Shown here one piece after another: positions 15,614 to 24,683 of a DNA stretch of 39,958 nucleotides (positions within the stretch are counted from its first letter, which is position 1; each line of letters starts with the position of its first letter). This DNA is from an uncultured Mycoplasmatota bacterium (GTDB lineage Bacteria > Bacillota_I > Bacilli_A > RF39 > UBA660). Made by a program: the position numbers and the translations under genes. A model generated the notes under the pieces. That model saw nothing but the letters and a program-made list of their open reading frames with translations, did not search any database and was not told where the DNA came from. The stretch covers positions 1 to 39,958 of the forward strand of contig CANPPW010000012.1 in the NCBI GenBank assembly GCA_947576095.1, read 5' to 3'.

Positions 15614-15711
15614 GATTTCGAGATTTTATGACTATAAGCAAAAATAATTATTGAGAATTTTGTAAAATTATGGTAGGATAAATACAGTAAATAAATGATA
15701 GGATGTGGGTT

Positions 15712-16419
15712 ATGGTTAGTTTCATTATTTGTGAAGATAATAAAAAAATGAATGAGAATGTTGTGAATATAGTAGATAAAATTATGATGAAAAATAAGAT
15801 GTCATATAAAAAATATATATTTTTTGATTATGATAGTTCATTTATGACAGTGATGGAAAGAAAAATCCCCAATAAGATTTATATTTTAGATATTGAAACT
15901 CCTACCTCATCTGGTATTGATATTGTAAGAAAAATAAGGGAAAAGGATTTGCATAGCATTATTATTTTCCTAACTTCTCATGATGAATTAGGATATATTA
16001 TTTTAAAACAGGAATTTATGTTTTTATCTTTTATATGTAAATTTGATGATTATGAACAGAAACTCTCAGAATCTATAAAGAAGGCTTTAAAAATAGTTGG
16101 TCAAAAGCTTGTTTTATCGATTACAGATAGTGGTGTGATATATAATATTCCCATTGATGATATTTTATATATTACACGTGATAGTGTAGATAGAAAGTGT
16201 ATTATTAAAACAGATTATACTGAATTTAGAGTAAATAGAAGTTTATCGGAGATGTTAGTAGAGGTTGGATCAAAATTTAAACAGTCTCATAGGGCATGTA
16301 TTATTAATATGGAACGATTTCGAAAAATGGATAAAAGAAAAAAATTAATTACCTTTGATTCTGGAGATACAATTGATCTGGTAAATGATGACTTTAAAAA
16401 GGAGTTGGCGAAGAGATGA
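15712..16419 (+). CDS. agrA: AgrA-like LytTR response regulator
   Basis: 235 residues. A receiver domain (1-120) with acidic pocket E8-D9, phospho-acceptor D60 in YILDIETP, Thr in FLTSHDE and K110 is followed by a LytTR DNA-binding domain (about 130-235) including FKQSHRACIINMERF. This is the AgrA/ComE arrangement. ATG 15712 is preferred to ATG 15703 because the GATAGGATG site is spaced for 15712. The stop overlaps the following kinase gene as ATGA. TTGAGA (about 15652) with a weak TAGGAT 17 bp on may be its promoter. It presumably activates the convergent agrBD operon on phosphorylation, but I found no clear LytTR repeat pair. The 3' end contains the AAAAAGGAG site reused by both kinase copies. 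Confidence 0.88.
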   Translation: MVSFIICEDNKKMNENVVNIVDKIMMKNKMSYKKYIFFDYDSSFMTVMERKIPNKIYILDIETPTSSGIDIVRKIREKDLHSIIIFLTSHDELGYIILKQEFMFLSFICKFDDYEQKLSESIKKALKIVGQKLVLSITDSGVIYNIPIDDILYITRDSVDRKCIIKTDYTEFRVNRSLSEMLVEVGSKFKQSHRACIINMERFRKMDKRKKLITFDSGDTIDLVNDDFKKELAKR

Positions 16420-18649
16420 TAAAAGTACTCCAAGACTTAATTGGTGCAGGCGTTATGTCATTAATTGCATTTTATATATTTTCAAAATTGTGCAAGAAGG
16501 AAATAGACTGGAAGAGTCGGAAAACGTATGAATTCTTGTTAATATATATGATAGTAATTATTGTTTCATATATAGGGACAAGTAAGTTTTTTAAAAATAT
16601 GATAAATTTTATTTGCTTTGTAGTATTAACAAAATATATGTTTAAAAAGAATATAAATAAAACAGTTTTGCTAAGTTTACTTACTTTAGGAATAGTAGCA
16701 ATATCAGAAATGATTTATGTATTTATACTAGTAGGAATTGTAAAAGTAAATGCAGAAATATTGCAAACAGATTATTTTGTTTCATGGTTAACTAATATGA
16801 TGATAGCTGCTATAGGGTGGGTAATAGTAAGAAATAGTAGAATGATAGATTTCCTAAATAAAAAGGTAGAGAATATAGATTCTCAAAATAGAATGATAGT
16901 AATTATGTTTGCTATATTGTCATTACTATCATTAACAATAGTAATATACTATATTTATTTTAAAGTTAATTTTGTACAATCAGTTATTTTAGCTATAGCA
17001 CTTATTTTGATATTGTTATTTTTAGTGTTTAATGTAATTAATGAAAAAGAAGAGTATGCGAAATTACAGATAAAATATAACTTAATAAACCAAAACTTAG
17101 ATACATATGAAAGAGTGTTGCGCTCTCAAAAAAAACAGAATCATGAAAATAGTAATAATTTAGCAGTGTTAAGAGGTATGATACAAAATGGCAAAGAGTC
17201 AGCAATAGAAGCCCTAGAATATATAGATAGTTTGACAGGGAAACGATTGAATGATGATCAAGAATTATTAATGGAGATTCAGGATGTTCCTACAGGAGGT
17301 TTGCAGGGATTATTGTATCAAAAATTATTATTGATGAAAGAAAAAAAGATAAACTATAATCTCCAGGTTAGTAAACTCATAATTGATATGCCATTTCATA
17401 AAATAAAATCCAATAAAAAAAAGAATTTATATACTATAGTAGGGGTATATTTAGATAATGCTATTCAAGCTGTCGAAAAGTACCAAGAAAAATTAATTAG
17501 TATTTATCTATATATGGAAAATCATTCTATGATTATTACTATATCTAATAATTACGAGGGGTATTTAGATATTACAAATTTTGATGAAGAAGGTTATACT
17601 GATAAAGGAGATGGACATGGATATGGTCTTTGTTTAGTAAAAAATATTATTGATAAAAATAAAGACTTCTGTAATGAAAGGATTATTAATGGTAGTATTT
17701 TCTCGCAAAAGTTGATAATGAAAATTTAGAGAATAATAAAAAGGAGTTGGCGAAGAGATGATAAAAGTACTCCAAGACCTAATTGGTGCAGGCATTATGT
17801 CATTAATTGCATTTTATATATTTTCAAAATTGTGCAAGAAGGAAATAGACTGGAAGAGTCGGAAAACGTATGAATTCTTGTTAATATATATGATAGTAAT
17901 TATTGTTTCATATATAGGGACAAGTAAGTTTTTTAAAAATATGATAAATTTTATTTGCTTTGTAGTATTAACAAAATATATGTTTAAAAAGAATATAAAT
18001 AAAACAGTTTTGCTAAGTTTACTTACTTTAGGAATAGTAGCAATATCAGAAATGATTTATGTATTTATACTAGTAGGAATTGTAAAAGTAAATGCAGAAA
18101 TATTGCAAACAGATTATTTTGTTTCATGGTTAACTAATATGATGATAGCTGCTATAGGGTGGGTAATAGTAAGAAATAGTAGAATGATAGATTTCCTAAA
18201 TAAAAAGGTAGAGAATATAGATTCTCAAAATAGAATGATAGTAATTATGTTTGCTATATTGTCATTACTATCATTAACAATAGTAATATACTATATTTAT
18301 TTTAAAGTTAATTTTGTACAATCAGTTATTTTAGCTATAGCACTTATTTTGATATTGTTATTTTTAGTGTTTAATGTAATTAATGAAAAAGAAGAGTATG
18401 CGAAATTACAGATAAAATATAACTTAATAAACCAAAACTTAGATACATATGAAAGAGTGTTGCGCTCTCAAAAAAAACAGAATCATGAAAATAGTAATAA
18501 TTTAGCAGTGTTAAGAGGTATGATACAAAATGGCAAAGAGTCAGCAATAGAAGCCCTAGAATATATAGATAGTTTGACAGGGAAACGATTGAATGATGAT
18601 CAAGAATTATTAATGGAGATTCAGGATGTTCCTACAGGAGGTTTGCAGT
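16395..18649 (+). repeat. Tandem direct repeat, about 0.91 kb, of the AgrC sensor region
   Basis: The segments 16395-17307 and 17737-18649 are aligned at a constant offset of 1342 bp. By eye I see only two base differences (16437 and 16452). The repeat begins in the last codons of agrA, so each kinase copy carries the same AAAAAGGAGTTGGCGAAGAG leader. After 17307 the copies diverge, except for a short shared patch to about 17377. Confidence 0.9.
16416..17729 (+). CDS. agrC: AgrC-like sensor histidine kinase, copy 1
   Basis: 437 residues. A six- to seven-helix membrane sensor (about 1-215) is followed by a GHKL kinase region. The phospho-acceptor is H243 in KKQNHENSNNLAVLRG, the N-box is YLDNAIQAVEKYQ (N348) and the G-box is GDGHGYGLCLVKNIID. 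This matches the AgrC family of peptide-pheromone receptors. It overlaps the agrA stop by 4 nt. Its first about 297 codons are almost identical to the next gene, copy 2, while the kinase half differs. Copy 1 is intact and is presumably the functional receptor. Confidence 0.9.
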   Translation: MIKVLQDLIGAGVMSLIAFYIFSKLCKKEIDWKSRKTYEFLLIYMIVIIVSYIGTSKFFKNMINFICFVVLTKYMFKKNINKTVLLSLLTLGIVAISEMIYVFILVGIVKVNAEILQTDYFVSWLTNMMIAAIGWVIVRNSRMIDFLNKKVENIDSQNRMIVIMFAILSLLSLTIVIYYIYFKVNFVQSVILAIALILILLFLVFNVINEKEEYAKLQIKYNLINQNLDTYERVLRSQKKQNHENSNNLAVLRGMIQNGKESAIEALEYIDSLTGKRLNDDQELLMEIQDVPTGGLQGLLYQKLLLMKEKKINYNLQVSKLIIDMPFHKIKSNKKKNLYTIVGVYLDNAIQAVEKYQEKLISIYLYMENHSMIITISNNYEGYLDITNFDEEGYTDKGDGHGYGLCLVKNIIDKNKDFCNERIINGSIFSQKLIMKI

Positions 18650-19090
18650 CCCTGGTACATCAGAAATTATTATTGATGAAAGAAAAAAAGATAAACTATA
18701 ATCTTCAGGTTAGTAAACATGTTAAAGGCAATATATTTAAATGTATAAATTTAGATGATTATGCAGCTCTATGTCAGGTTTTAGGAATTTTTTTAGATAA
18801 TGCGATTGAAGCTGTGGAAAATTATGATCAAAGATTAGTAGGAATATATATATAAGAATAGAAATGAAATTGCATTAAAAATATCAAATAATTATTTTGG
18901 AATTATTGATGTAGTCAATATGGATAAAATGGGCTATAGTACTAAAGGAGAATTACGGGGATATGGTTTAGATAATGCAAATGAAATTTTAGAAAAAACT
19001 CGCATTTTATCTTGTAATAAGGTTTTTGATGGAAATATTTTTTCTCAAATATTAAAAATAAACCTCAAAAGTCAAAGTAGAGGGTCATAA
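17758..19090 (+). pseudogene. agrC2: AgrC-like sensor histidine kinase, copy 2, frameshifted
   Basis: Residues 1-297 repeat copy 1 with one visible change (V12I). The kinase half is distinct (SLVHQKLLLM, NIFKCINLDDYAALCQVLG, N-box FLDNAIEAVENYD). The frame stops at 18855 after GIYI inside ATATATATATA (18844-18854). In the +1 frame the rest of the kinase continues to TAA at 19088-19090: NRNEIALKISNNY, MGYSTKGELRGYGL (G-box), VFDGNIFSQILKI. Adding one AT unit would restore a full kinase, GIYIYKNRNEIAL. It is therefore either a recent pseudogene, a slippage-variable gene, or a sequencing error. As read, the product keeps the sensor, the phospho-acceptor His and the N-box but lacks the G-box. Confidence 0.85.
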
Positions 19091-19120
19091 TTTATTTAAA
19101 TATTAAACTAATTATAAAAT

Positions 19121-19162
19121 AAAAAAAGAATAAACTATTTATCATTCGTTTATTCTTTTTTT
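19121..19162. terminator. Strong bidirectional terminator between agrC2 and agrD1
   Basis: A perfect 15-bp stem, AAAAAAAGAATAAAC / GTTTATTCTTTTTTT, with a 12-nt loop. It serves both converging transcripts. Confidence 0.9.
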
Positions 19163-19169
19163 GAACAAA

Positions 19170-19292
19170 TTATTTTAGTAAACTTTTTGGACATTTTGGT
19201 TCATCCATATACCAAATCCAACATGCTTGACTACCAGTAGTAGCGGCTCCTCCCCCTAAAAATGATAAGATAGATGCAAATAAATTTTTCAT
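19170..19292 (-). CDS. agrD1: AgrD-like autoinducing-peptide precursor 1
   Basis: 40 residues. AgrD is cut and cyclised by AgrB to a thiolactone pheromone. The amphipathic leader MKNLFASILSFLGGGAATTG is followed by the core SQACWIWYM and the tail DEPKCPKSLLK. The tail aligns with the DE-x-x-x-P-K-x-L tail of staphylococcal AgrD. The ring would be CWIWYM, or CWIWY if cleavage is one residue earlier. AGAGGGGAA precedes the ATG. It is separated from agrD2 by an agrB remnant, and the strong terminator follows it. It is too short for default gene callers. Confidence 0.88.
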   Translation of the reverse strand: MKNLFASILSFLGGGAATTGSQACWIWYMDEPKCPKSLLK

Positions 19293-19334
19293 AAAAATTC
19301 CCCTCTTTCTATTTTTTCATCTATGTTTAAATTA

Positions 19335-19456
19335 TTAATTTAAACCATTATTAATAATATATGCCTTATAATGATTATAAGGTACATTGGATAATTTATA
19401 TACAAGTGGAGATGTCATAGCTGTTTGCACATATAAGATCTCCAATGAAAGCATTT
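19335..19456 (-). pseudogene. agrB 3'-end remnant
   Basis: About 122 bp matches the last 40 or so codons of the intact agrB at offset 339, including the stop codon and the 42-bp spacer to agrD. A one-base net change (GGAGATCTTATATGTG here against GGAGCTTTATGTG) breaks the frame, and homology ends at about 19456. The 19457-19485 stretch is junction sequence without a match. It is a by-product of the agrD duplication and has no coding function. Confidence 0.8.
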
Positions 19457-19508
19457 GGTCAAATACATATTGGACAAAATAAGATTGTTTATTCTTTTTT
19501 TGAACAAA

Positions 19509-19631
19509 TTATTTTAGTAAACTTTTTGGGCACTCTGGTTCGTCTAAGAATATAATAACACATGCTTGACTACCAGTAGTAGCGGCTCCTCCCCCTAAAA
19601 ATGATAAGATAGATGCAAATAAATTTTTCAT
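19509..19631 (-). CDS. agrD2: AgrD-like autoinducing-peptide precursor 2
   Basis: 40 residues. The leader is identical to AgrD1 up to SQAC; the core is then CVIIFL and the tail DEPECPKSLLK. All the strong differences fall in the five residues that follow the ring Cys, plus one tail change (K to E). It lies 42 bp after the intact agrB, the usual agrBD arrangement. No complete terminator stem lies between agrD2 and agrD1 (only the T-rich arm is repeated), so transcription probably continues into agrD1. Confidence 0.88.
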   Translation of the reverse strand: MKNLFASILSFLGGGAATTGSQACVIIFLDEPECPKSLLK

Positions 19632-19673: not shown

Positions 19674-20288
19674 TTAATTTAAACCATTATTAATAATATA
19701 TGCCTTATAATTATCATAAGGTACATTGAATAATTTATATACAAGTGGAGATATCATAGCTGTTTGTACACATAAAGCTCCAATGAAAGCATTTCTTAAA
19801 AACATATCTTGAATGAAAATAGTTAAAAATACAAATACAATAGAAATAATAGTAGAGATAAATTTATATGTATCTCTGCGTTTTTGATTAATAATAGGTC
19901 TTTTATGAGTATCCGCTGGAGCATTTTGGTAAACTCTGATAATGCAGTAAATTCCTATCGCTATTCTTATATATAAAGAAAAATTTACAGTTAATGATAA
20001 ATACATACTAACCATAAAAATTACAAAAGAACTTACTAAACAAATCCAACTCTTAGAGGCGTGTAATCCAAAAGATGGCATGCGAATAATATTATAAATT
20101 AATAAAAAAATAAATAATGGTTTCGCAACACCTAGTAAGAATGCGATTCCAAAAATAATAATTGTTTTTGTAATTAAAATATAAATAGCTTCTAGACCAT
20201 ATTGAATCTCTTCTAGTTTTTCTTCTGAGTAGTTAAGATTAGATTCTTTTATGATTTTCATACACTTTCCAATAATTTTCCCTCTCAT
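19674..20288 (-). CDS. agrB: AgrB-like peptide-processing membrane protease
   Basis: 204 residues with about five or six membrane helices. AgrB cleaves the AgrD tail and forms the thiolactone. The catalytic pair is H76 and C83 in FGLHASKSWICLV, with the seven-residue spacing known in Staphylococcus aureus AgrB (H77/C84). The basic loop RVYQNAPADTHKRPI is typical of the family. The start is set by GAGGAGAAAAT. It is the first gene of a minus-strand operon agrB-agrD2-agrD1, convergent with agrA-agrC. It is the only complete agrB in the window and should process both precursors, because their leader and tail are the same. Confidence 0.93.
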   Translation of the reverse strand: MRGKIIGKCMKIIKESNLNYSEEKLEEIQYGLEAIYILITKTIIIFGIAFLLGVAKPLFIFLLIYNIIRMPSFGLHASKSWICLVSSFVIFMVSMYLSLTVNFSLYIRIAIGIYCIIRVYQNAPADTHKRPIINQKRRDTYKFISTIISIVFVFLTIFIQDMFLRNAFIGALCVQTAMISPLVYKLFNVPYDNYKAYIINNGLN

Positions 20289-24236: not shown

Positions 24237-24683
24237 ATGGCAAAATTACAAGTTAAGAAAAGAGGAGATGTATATCAATATGTATTTGAAGTTGCACCAG
24301 TTAATGGAGTGAGGAAGTGGAAATCAAAATCAGAGTTTAAAACAAAATCCGAAGCTAACAGAGAAGGAGTAAAAGATTATAACGAATATATACAAACTGG
24401 TCAAAGTTTTGTTCCTACTAAAATATCTTATTCAGATTATTGGATGCAACAATACTGTCAAATAAATTTGCAATATCGTACAATTGAAAGTTATGCAACA
24501 AAAAGTTTAAGAAATGGTGTAGAAATTAGAGATGTAGCAGATATTTTAGGTCATAGTAAAATGGAGGCAACAGAGAATTATTATATTTCTTCAACAGAAG
24601 AAACACTTAAAGAAGCAAGTGAAAAGTTTGAACAAACTACTCAATCAAAAACTATAAATGAAATTATAAAATTTAAAAACTAG
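24237..24683 (+). pseudogene. Tyrosine recombinase (integrase), internally deleted
   Basis: 148 residues, against about 380 in phage/ICE integrases. Residues 1-83 are an arm-binding N-terminus (MAKLQVKKRGDVYQYVFEV) leading into the SAM-like core-binding start. The frame then jumps in frame to the very end of the catalytic domain, VADILGHSKMEATENYYIS, which holds the HxxS box and the Tyr nucleophile. The first catalytic Arg and the HxxR motif are gone, so it cannot recombine DNA. AAAGGAG precedes the ATG. It marks the left side of a decayed mobile element placed after secA. Confidence 0.85.

Follow-up and report, generated by a model that had tools for sequence, protein, structure and literature searches.

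The window, a complete contig of 39,958 bases, holds what its gene content identifies as an agr-type quorum-sensing locus in which the pheromone gene agrD and the receptor gene agrC are both duplicated in tandem. We read this locus, with a confidence slightly better than even, as one passing from one pheromone specificity to another, with its genes turning over through tandem duplication, gene conversion and loss. The parent genome comprises 1.16 Mb in 38 contigs, and is related to other reduced genomes of uncultured Bacilli.

On the plus strand lie a LytTR response regulator resembling AgrA (15703–16419), the intact receptor histidine kinase gene agrC1 (16416–17729, 437 aa) and its tandem copy agrC2 (17758–18855). 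The minus strand, read from the agrB side, carries intact agrB (19674–20288), agrD-B (19509–19631), a 3′-end remnant of agrB duplicated together with agrD (19335–19481), and agrD-A (19170–19292). The regulator exceeded the cut-off of the Pfam LytTR model (PF04397, 42 bits, cut-off 22.6), fell slightly below that of Response_reg (28.7 bits, cut-off 30.2), and matched the NCBIfam AgrA model with an E value of 1e-10, yet far below that model's staphylococcal cut-off. AgrC1 was recognized by HATPase_c_5 (49.3 bits, cut-off 22), and AgrB, a 204-aa AIP-processing membrane endopeptidase, by Pfam AgrB (PF04647, 110 bits, cut-off 23). The AgrB, AgrD, AgrC1 and LytTR regulator of an agr-type locus are each present, and their order, with regulator and agrC converging on agrD and agrB, is the usual one among some 100 relatives. 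A second agr locus with AgrB was not found elsewhere in this genome. Downstream of secA, a short ORF (24237–24683) looks, by eye from its translation, like a tyrosine recombinase reduced to its two ends, joined to each other, and is perhaps an integrase remnant.

The agr system of S. aureus has the same components: AgrB, an AgrD with an amphipathic leader, ring Cys and acidic DE tail, the AgrC kinase and a LytTR regulator. It occurs in four specificity groups, and between these the core varies along with the sensor, the remainder being conserved (PMC12312760, PMC10482373). Each S. aureus strain has one agrD and one agrC, whereas the window has two of each; the window locus also differs in its convergent agrC and agrD, in a ring predicted to contain six residues instead of five, and in having no known exotail.

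Both 40-aa AgrD precursors of the original prediction are present as ORFs, the minus-strand ORF at 19170–19292 encoding MKNLFASILSFLGGGAATTGSQACWIWYMDEPKCPKSLLK and that at 19509–19631 encoding MKNLFASILSFLGGGAATTGSQACVIIFLDEPECPKSLLK. Their identity as AgrD is supported by TIGR04223 (AgrD family cyclic lactone autoinducer peptide), whose curated cut-off of 19 bits is exceeded by both agrD-A (32.9 bits) and agrD-B (28.8 bits); the narrower staphylococcal Pfam AgrD model was not reached (17 and 18.3 bits, cut-off 22.7). Aligned with congeners, both show the leader, ring Cys and acidic conserved tail of an AgrD. The leader is the same in the two precursors and the tail almost entirely so, as had been proposed, but the five core residues after the ring Cys, WIWYM in agrD-A and VIIFL in agrD-B, do not all differ: four of the five do, and core position 2 is Ile in both. 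Each precursor has Cys plus five residues before Asp-Glu, which would depart from the five-residue thiolactone ring of staphylococcal agr proper. Cleavage by AgrB ahead of the Asp, as happens in S. aureus, would yield the six-residue thiolactones cyclo(CWIWYM) and cyclo(CVIIFL). A six-residue ring, [CVLVTL], has been described for Clostridium acetobutylicum (PMC12312760).

A single intact AgrB was found, in agreement with the proposal that one AgrB serves both precursors, and its His76/Cys83 dyad has the spacing of His77/Cys84 in S. aureus (PMC10482373). Because the precursors have the leader, Asp-Glu and tail in common, this AgrB probably processes both, as inferred from AgrD processing reviewed in PMC10482373. 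The AgrD leader could be removed by either of two CAAX-type proteases (PF02517) whose genes lie outside this locus; MroQ has been described as a CAAX-type protease (PMC12312760).

Between agrC2 and agrD-A lies a symmetrical, terminator-like AT-rich hairpin (19119–19162), identified by folding. On the minus strand it stands 3′ of agrD-A, with 15 pairs ending in T's (−13.1 kcal/mol, z −3.25). Only its first arm is left 3′ of agrD-B, so that the hairpin is intact only after the distal agrD, which suggests that agrB and the two agrD genes are probably one transcript read from the agrB side. A scan for consensus promoters and terminators, the latter G+C-based, found nothing above shuffled sequence and did not pick up the 19119–19162 hairpin. 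An alignment of five congeners likewise gave nothing clear in the way of a common AgrA-type operator upstream of agrB.

At the DNA level the agrD pair is a mosaic. The copies are identical over 152 bp up to the ring Cys codon, a tract that takes in the leader, the RBS and the 3′ end of agrB, and then diverge in an island of 30 nt (+73 to +102, counted from the ATG) with 14 differences, past which the next 43 bp are again identical. The island spans the core and the first five tail codons, among which those for Asp30 and Cys34 differ silently. Differences affect 10 of the 15 core nucleotides and 5 of 210 elsewhere (Fisher p = 1e-10), a concentration that is not chance. None of the 24 leader codons differs, and third positions differ in 3 of 11 tail codons as against 0 of 24 in the leader (p 0.025). 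The agrB remnant matches AgrB residues 157–204 (65% identity, E 1e-12); at about 90% similarity farther out, it turns identical near agrD.

The focused change that had been ascribed to a tandem copy is thus present in so far as the differences centre on the core, but the history implied for it, a recent clean duplication followed by core substitutions, does not hold. Such a duplication with point selection only was rejected because silent changes lie inside the island and none in the leader, and because the agrB remnant has diverged outside the identical run. Identical flanks around a divergent block with silent tail changes point instead to gene conversion or to insertion of a core block by recombination, and recombination or gene conversion accounts for the mosaic better than point selection alone. 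The pattern fits older or imported cores whose flanks have been homogenised. Selection may act on the core as well, since a second tandem agrD pair, in a congener (G005), is likewise core-centred (5/15 core nucleotides versus 5/175 outside, p = 3e-4) and every one of its core changes alters the amino acid; this pair has its own agrB remnant.

The receptor duplication, absent from the original prediction, also contains an identical tract that ends sharply, as the agrD pair does. AgrC1 has about six membrane segments, an NHEN box, an N box and a G box. agrC1 and agrC2 share an identical run of 854 bp that spans the entire sensor, and two SNPs fall within their first 40 bases; the sensors share 204 of 205 residues, whereas the ATPase (catalytic) domains are only 45% identical. 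The reverse holds in the family: when 72 single-copy relatives were compared in pairs, the catalytic domain was better conserved than the sensor in 99.96% of them, and where catalytic domains were 40–50% identical no sensor pair exceeded 33%. An identical sensor beside a 45% identical catalytic domain therefore needs recombination, and the sensor tract must have been copied recently. A milder case is the tandem agrC of another relative (G049), with the sensor 95% and the ATPase domain 90% identical. An origin of the AgrC2 catalytic domain from an unrelated kinase was not supported: of all proteins in 386 family genomes, AgrC1 from the same genome matches it best (54%), with other AgrC proteins next, and in a tree it falls inside the genus, with weak support.

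AgrC2 is open for 365 residues and breaks off in an AT-dinucleotide run ahead of the ATP-binding G box. It keeps the dimerisation region, the NHEN box and the N box, lacks the G box, and scores 18.3 bits against HATPase_c_5, below the cut-off of 22. A remainder of the catalytic domain follows out of frame (18857–19090), its translation resembling the AgrC catalytic domain of congeners. Frameshifts and reversible mutations of agr are known in S. aureus (PMC6686034); decay, phase variation and sequencing error are accordingly all possible for agrC2, and the break could be an error or reversible. Two independent AgrD–AgrC channels were rejected as the present state, the sensors being identical and agrC2 truncated. 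Two signals but a single type of sensor are thus probably present in the cell, from which it would follow that at most one signal is well matched, unless the sensor is promiscuous.

These observations bear on a different explanation, in which a dual-signal system is kept by selection, the second peptide being a standing antagonist or cross-strain signal from the same cell and truncated AgrC2 modulating signalling through mixed dimers with AgrC1. With neutral decay, discussed below, it is one of the two chief rivals to our reading, and we consider it unlikely. Both precursors are intact, carry the same processing signals and are probably co-transcribed; the two tandem pairs of the genus keep different cores within alike flanks, as would be expected if selection opposed homogenisation there; and AgrC2 retains the dimerisation region and NHEN box. 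AgrC2 is nevertheless broken, and tandem agrD is rare, in 3 of about 105 genomes, which argues against a stable system in the family.

The 854-bp perfect repeat is hard for short reads, and in a 38-contig assembly of one genome the copy order, or which core stands in which slot, could be an assembly choice. The wider proposal that two strains with different agr types were joined in one chimeric contig has in its favour a MAG-like genome with 38 contigs and long perfect repeats. We regard it as very improbable: the junctions are unique, the diverged agrB remnant is joined by about 50 bp missing from the other copy, and the starts of agrC1 and agrC2 differ by two SNPs. Diverged tandem copies in other genomes, moreover, cannot be collapsed repeats.

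An AgrD model matched in 195 of 386 family genomes, and 100 loci were annotated in addition to the window and some further loci. The loci were taken in order of AgrD score, with the genus of the window among them, so the rates below are rough. Tandem agrC adjoining agrD occurs in 8 of about 105 genomes (the window, G003, G249, G068, G097, G189, G085 and G049), and the rarer tandem agrD in the window, G005 and G034; within the genus, an agr locus is present in five genomes, and in three of these it contains a tandem. In G068, G097, G189 and G049 both agrC copies are full length and diverged, and hence are not collapsed repeats. Those of G003 and G085 are partly cut by a contig end or frame. The two copies in G249 (locus L055, 7713–9079 and 9724–11090) are 98.9% identical with the same frame break, and may be a very recent duplication or an assembly repeat; they may be an artefact of the kind that a chimera would produce.

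The tandem agrD of G034 is less clear, its agrB being on another contig. This genome has three agrD genes (L050, L051) with cores LGFIF, IGLVF and FGFIF, two of them in tandem without an adjoining agrB and the third beside agrB on the other contig, which begins with sequence similar to that at the end of the first locus. In seven further loci (L086, L091, L093, L098, L109, L132 and L143) the contig stops within a few hundred bases of agrD. Such contig ends may reflect repeats or strain variants that break assembly, in which case tandem copies are undercounted.

Broken copies also invite a neutral account, in which the extra agrC and agrB–agrD copies are dying, ordinary gene conversion acts at the flanks, and only one pheromone matters. 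The agrB copy is a 3′ remnant only and agrC2 is truncated, tandem copies in G085 and G249 are also broken, and G005 likewise has an agrB remnant. Both agrD ORFs of the window are fully open with conserved processing residues, however, and core-centred differences in two separate pairs are unexpected under neutral drift; we therefore rate neutral decay as unlikely.

Across the family, 98 of 108 AgrDs have a Cys and five further residues ahead of Asp-Glu. The 98 contain 95 distinct cores, and the flanking Asp-Glu is almost invariant, which bears out the view that the core is the part that changes; in this comparison, made between species only, ring-sequence variability is great. Variants of the ring were also observed. 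In seven loci (L103, L106, L112, L124, L137, L144 and L145) Ser replaces the ring Cys, for example SWLGWF before DEAEMPESLIK, so a lactone rather than a thiolactone is likely. Three others (L127, L133 and L135) have Cys plus six residues before Asp-Glu, a core one residue longer, with predicted seven-residue rings.

Core and sensor diverge together weakly (partial Mantel rank r 0.12 with ATPase distance held constant, p 0.001 by permutation). In the two single-copy pairs with sensors 80–86% identical the cores are identical, and among the pairs listed with sensors at most 58% identical the cores are all different, even where the ATPase domain is 96% identical. As core identity tracks the AgrC sensor, the core appears to be the specificity-bearing part. 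Two single-copy species (L040 and L044) have AgrC ATPase domains 96% identical, sensors 48% identical, and the cores IVVFV and LWIFV; as read from these identities, this is an exchange of sensor and core with the kinase unchanged.

Duplication of agr and of pheromone genes has precedents, on which the window locus appears to be a variation. C. botulinum has several agrD per genome, in agrBD1 and agrBD2 (PMC12312760, PMC3673130), but every one of these has its own agrB, whereas two tandem agrD genes accompany one AgrB here. In Rap-Phr of Bacillus, duplicated and diverged phr genes can serve as a promiscuous intermediate for specificity shifts, and short peptide genes were suggested to favour the duplication route (Even-Tov et al. 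2016, PMC5199041). Like the window, Rap-Phr shows tandem or intragenic pheromone duplication, diverged mature peptides and one receptor, and is proposed to be transient; the agrD pairs of the window and G005 likewise combine, within a single locus, duplicate signal genes and mature peptides that are predicted to have diverged. The chemistry is unrelated, however, the Rap receptor is intracellular, and in the window the receptor is also duplicated, with its sensor converted. No report of tandem agrD, and none of AgrD in RF39, was found in the open-access literature, which leaves out most subscription journals.

In the transition that we favour, duplication would place a second signal gene beside the first, gene conversion or recent recombination would copy the sensor-coding tract between agrC1 and agrC2, agrC2 would lose its ATP-binding part, and recombination would homogenise the agrD copies except for their cores. 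One peptide would then fit the present sensor, and the other would be left over from the past, act as an antagonist or signal to other strains. A more specific form, which we put forward tentatively, makes the locus a snapshot of a switch in agr specificity, in which the duplicate pheromone brings a new core and gene conversion spreads one sensor, repeatedly in the family.

The two cores by themselves are of less interest than their combination with two receptors that have one sensor, and than the recurrence in the family. By what route a signal peptide and its receptor can both change, with function kept throughout, is an old question for agr groups. Those of staphylococci are already fixed; here single-copy, duplicated, converted and broken stages coexist, and since they stand side by side in one reduced-genome family, the steps become readable and testable. 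The family also supplies about 100 natural core–sensor pairs with predicted six-residue rings. If the snapshot of a switch is true, the lineage would change pheromone type without a stage of mismatch between signal and receptor.
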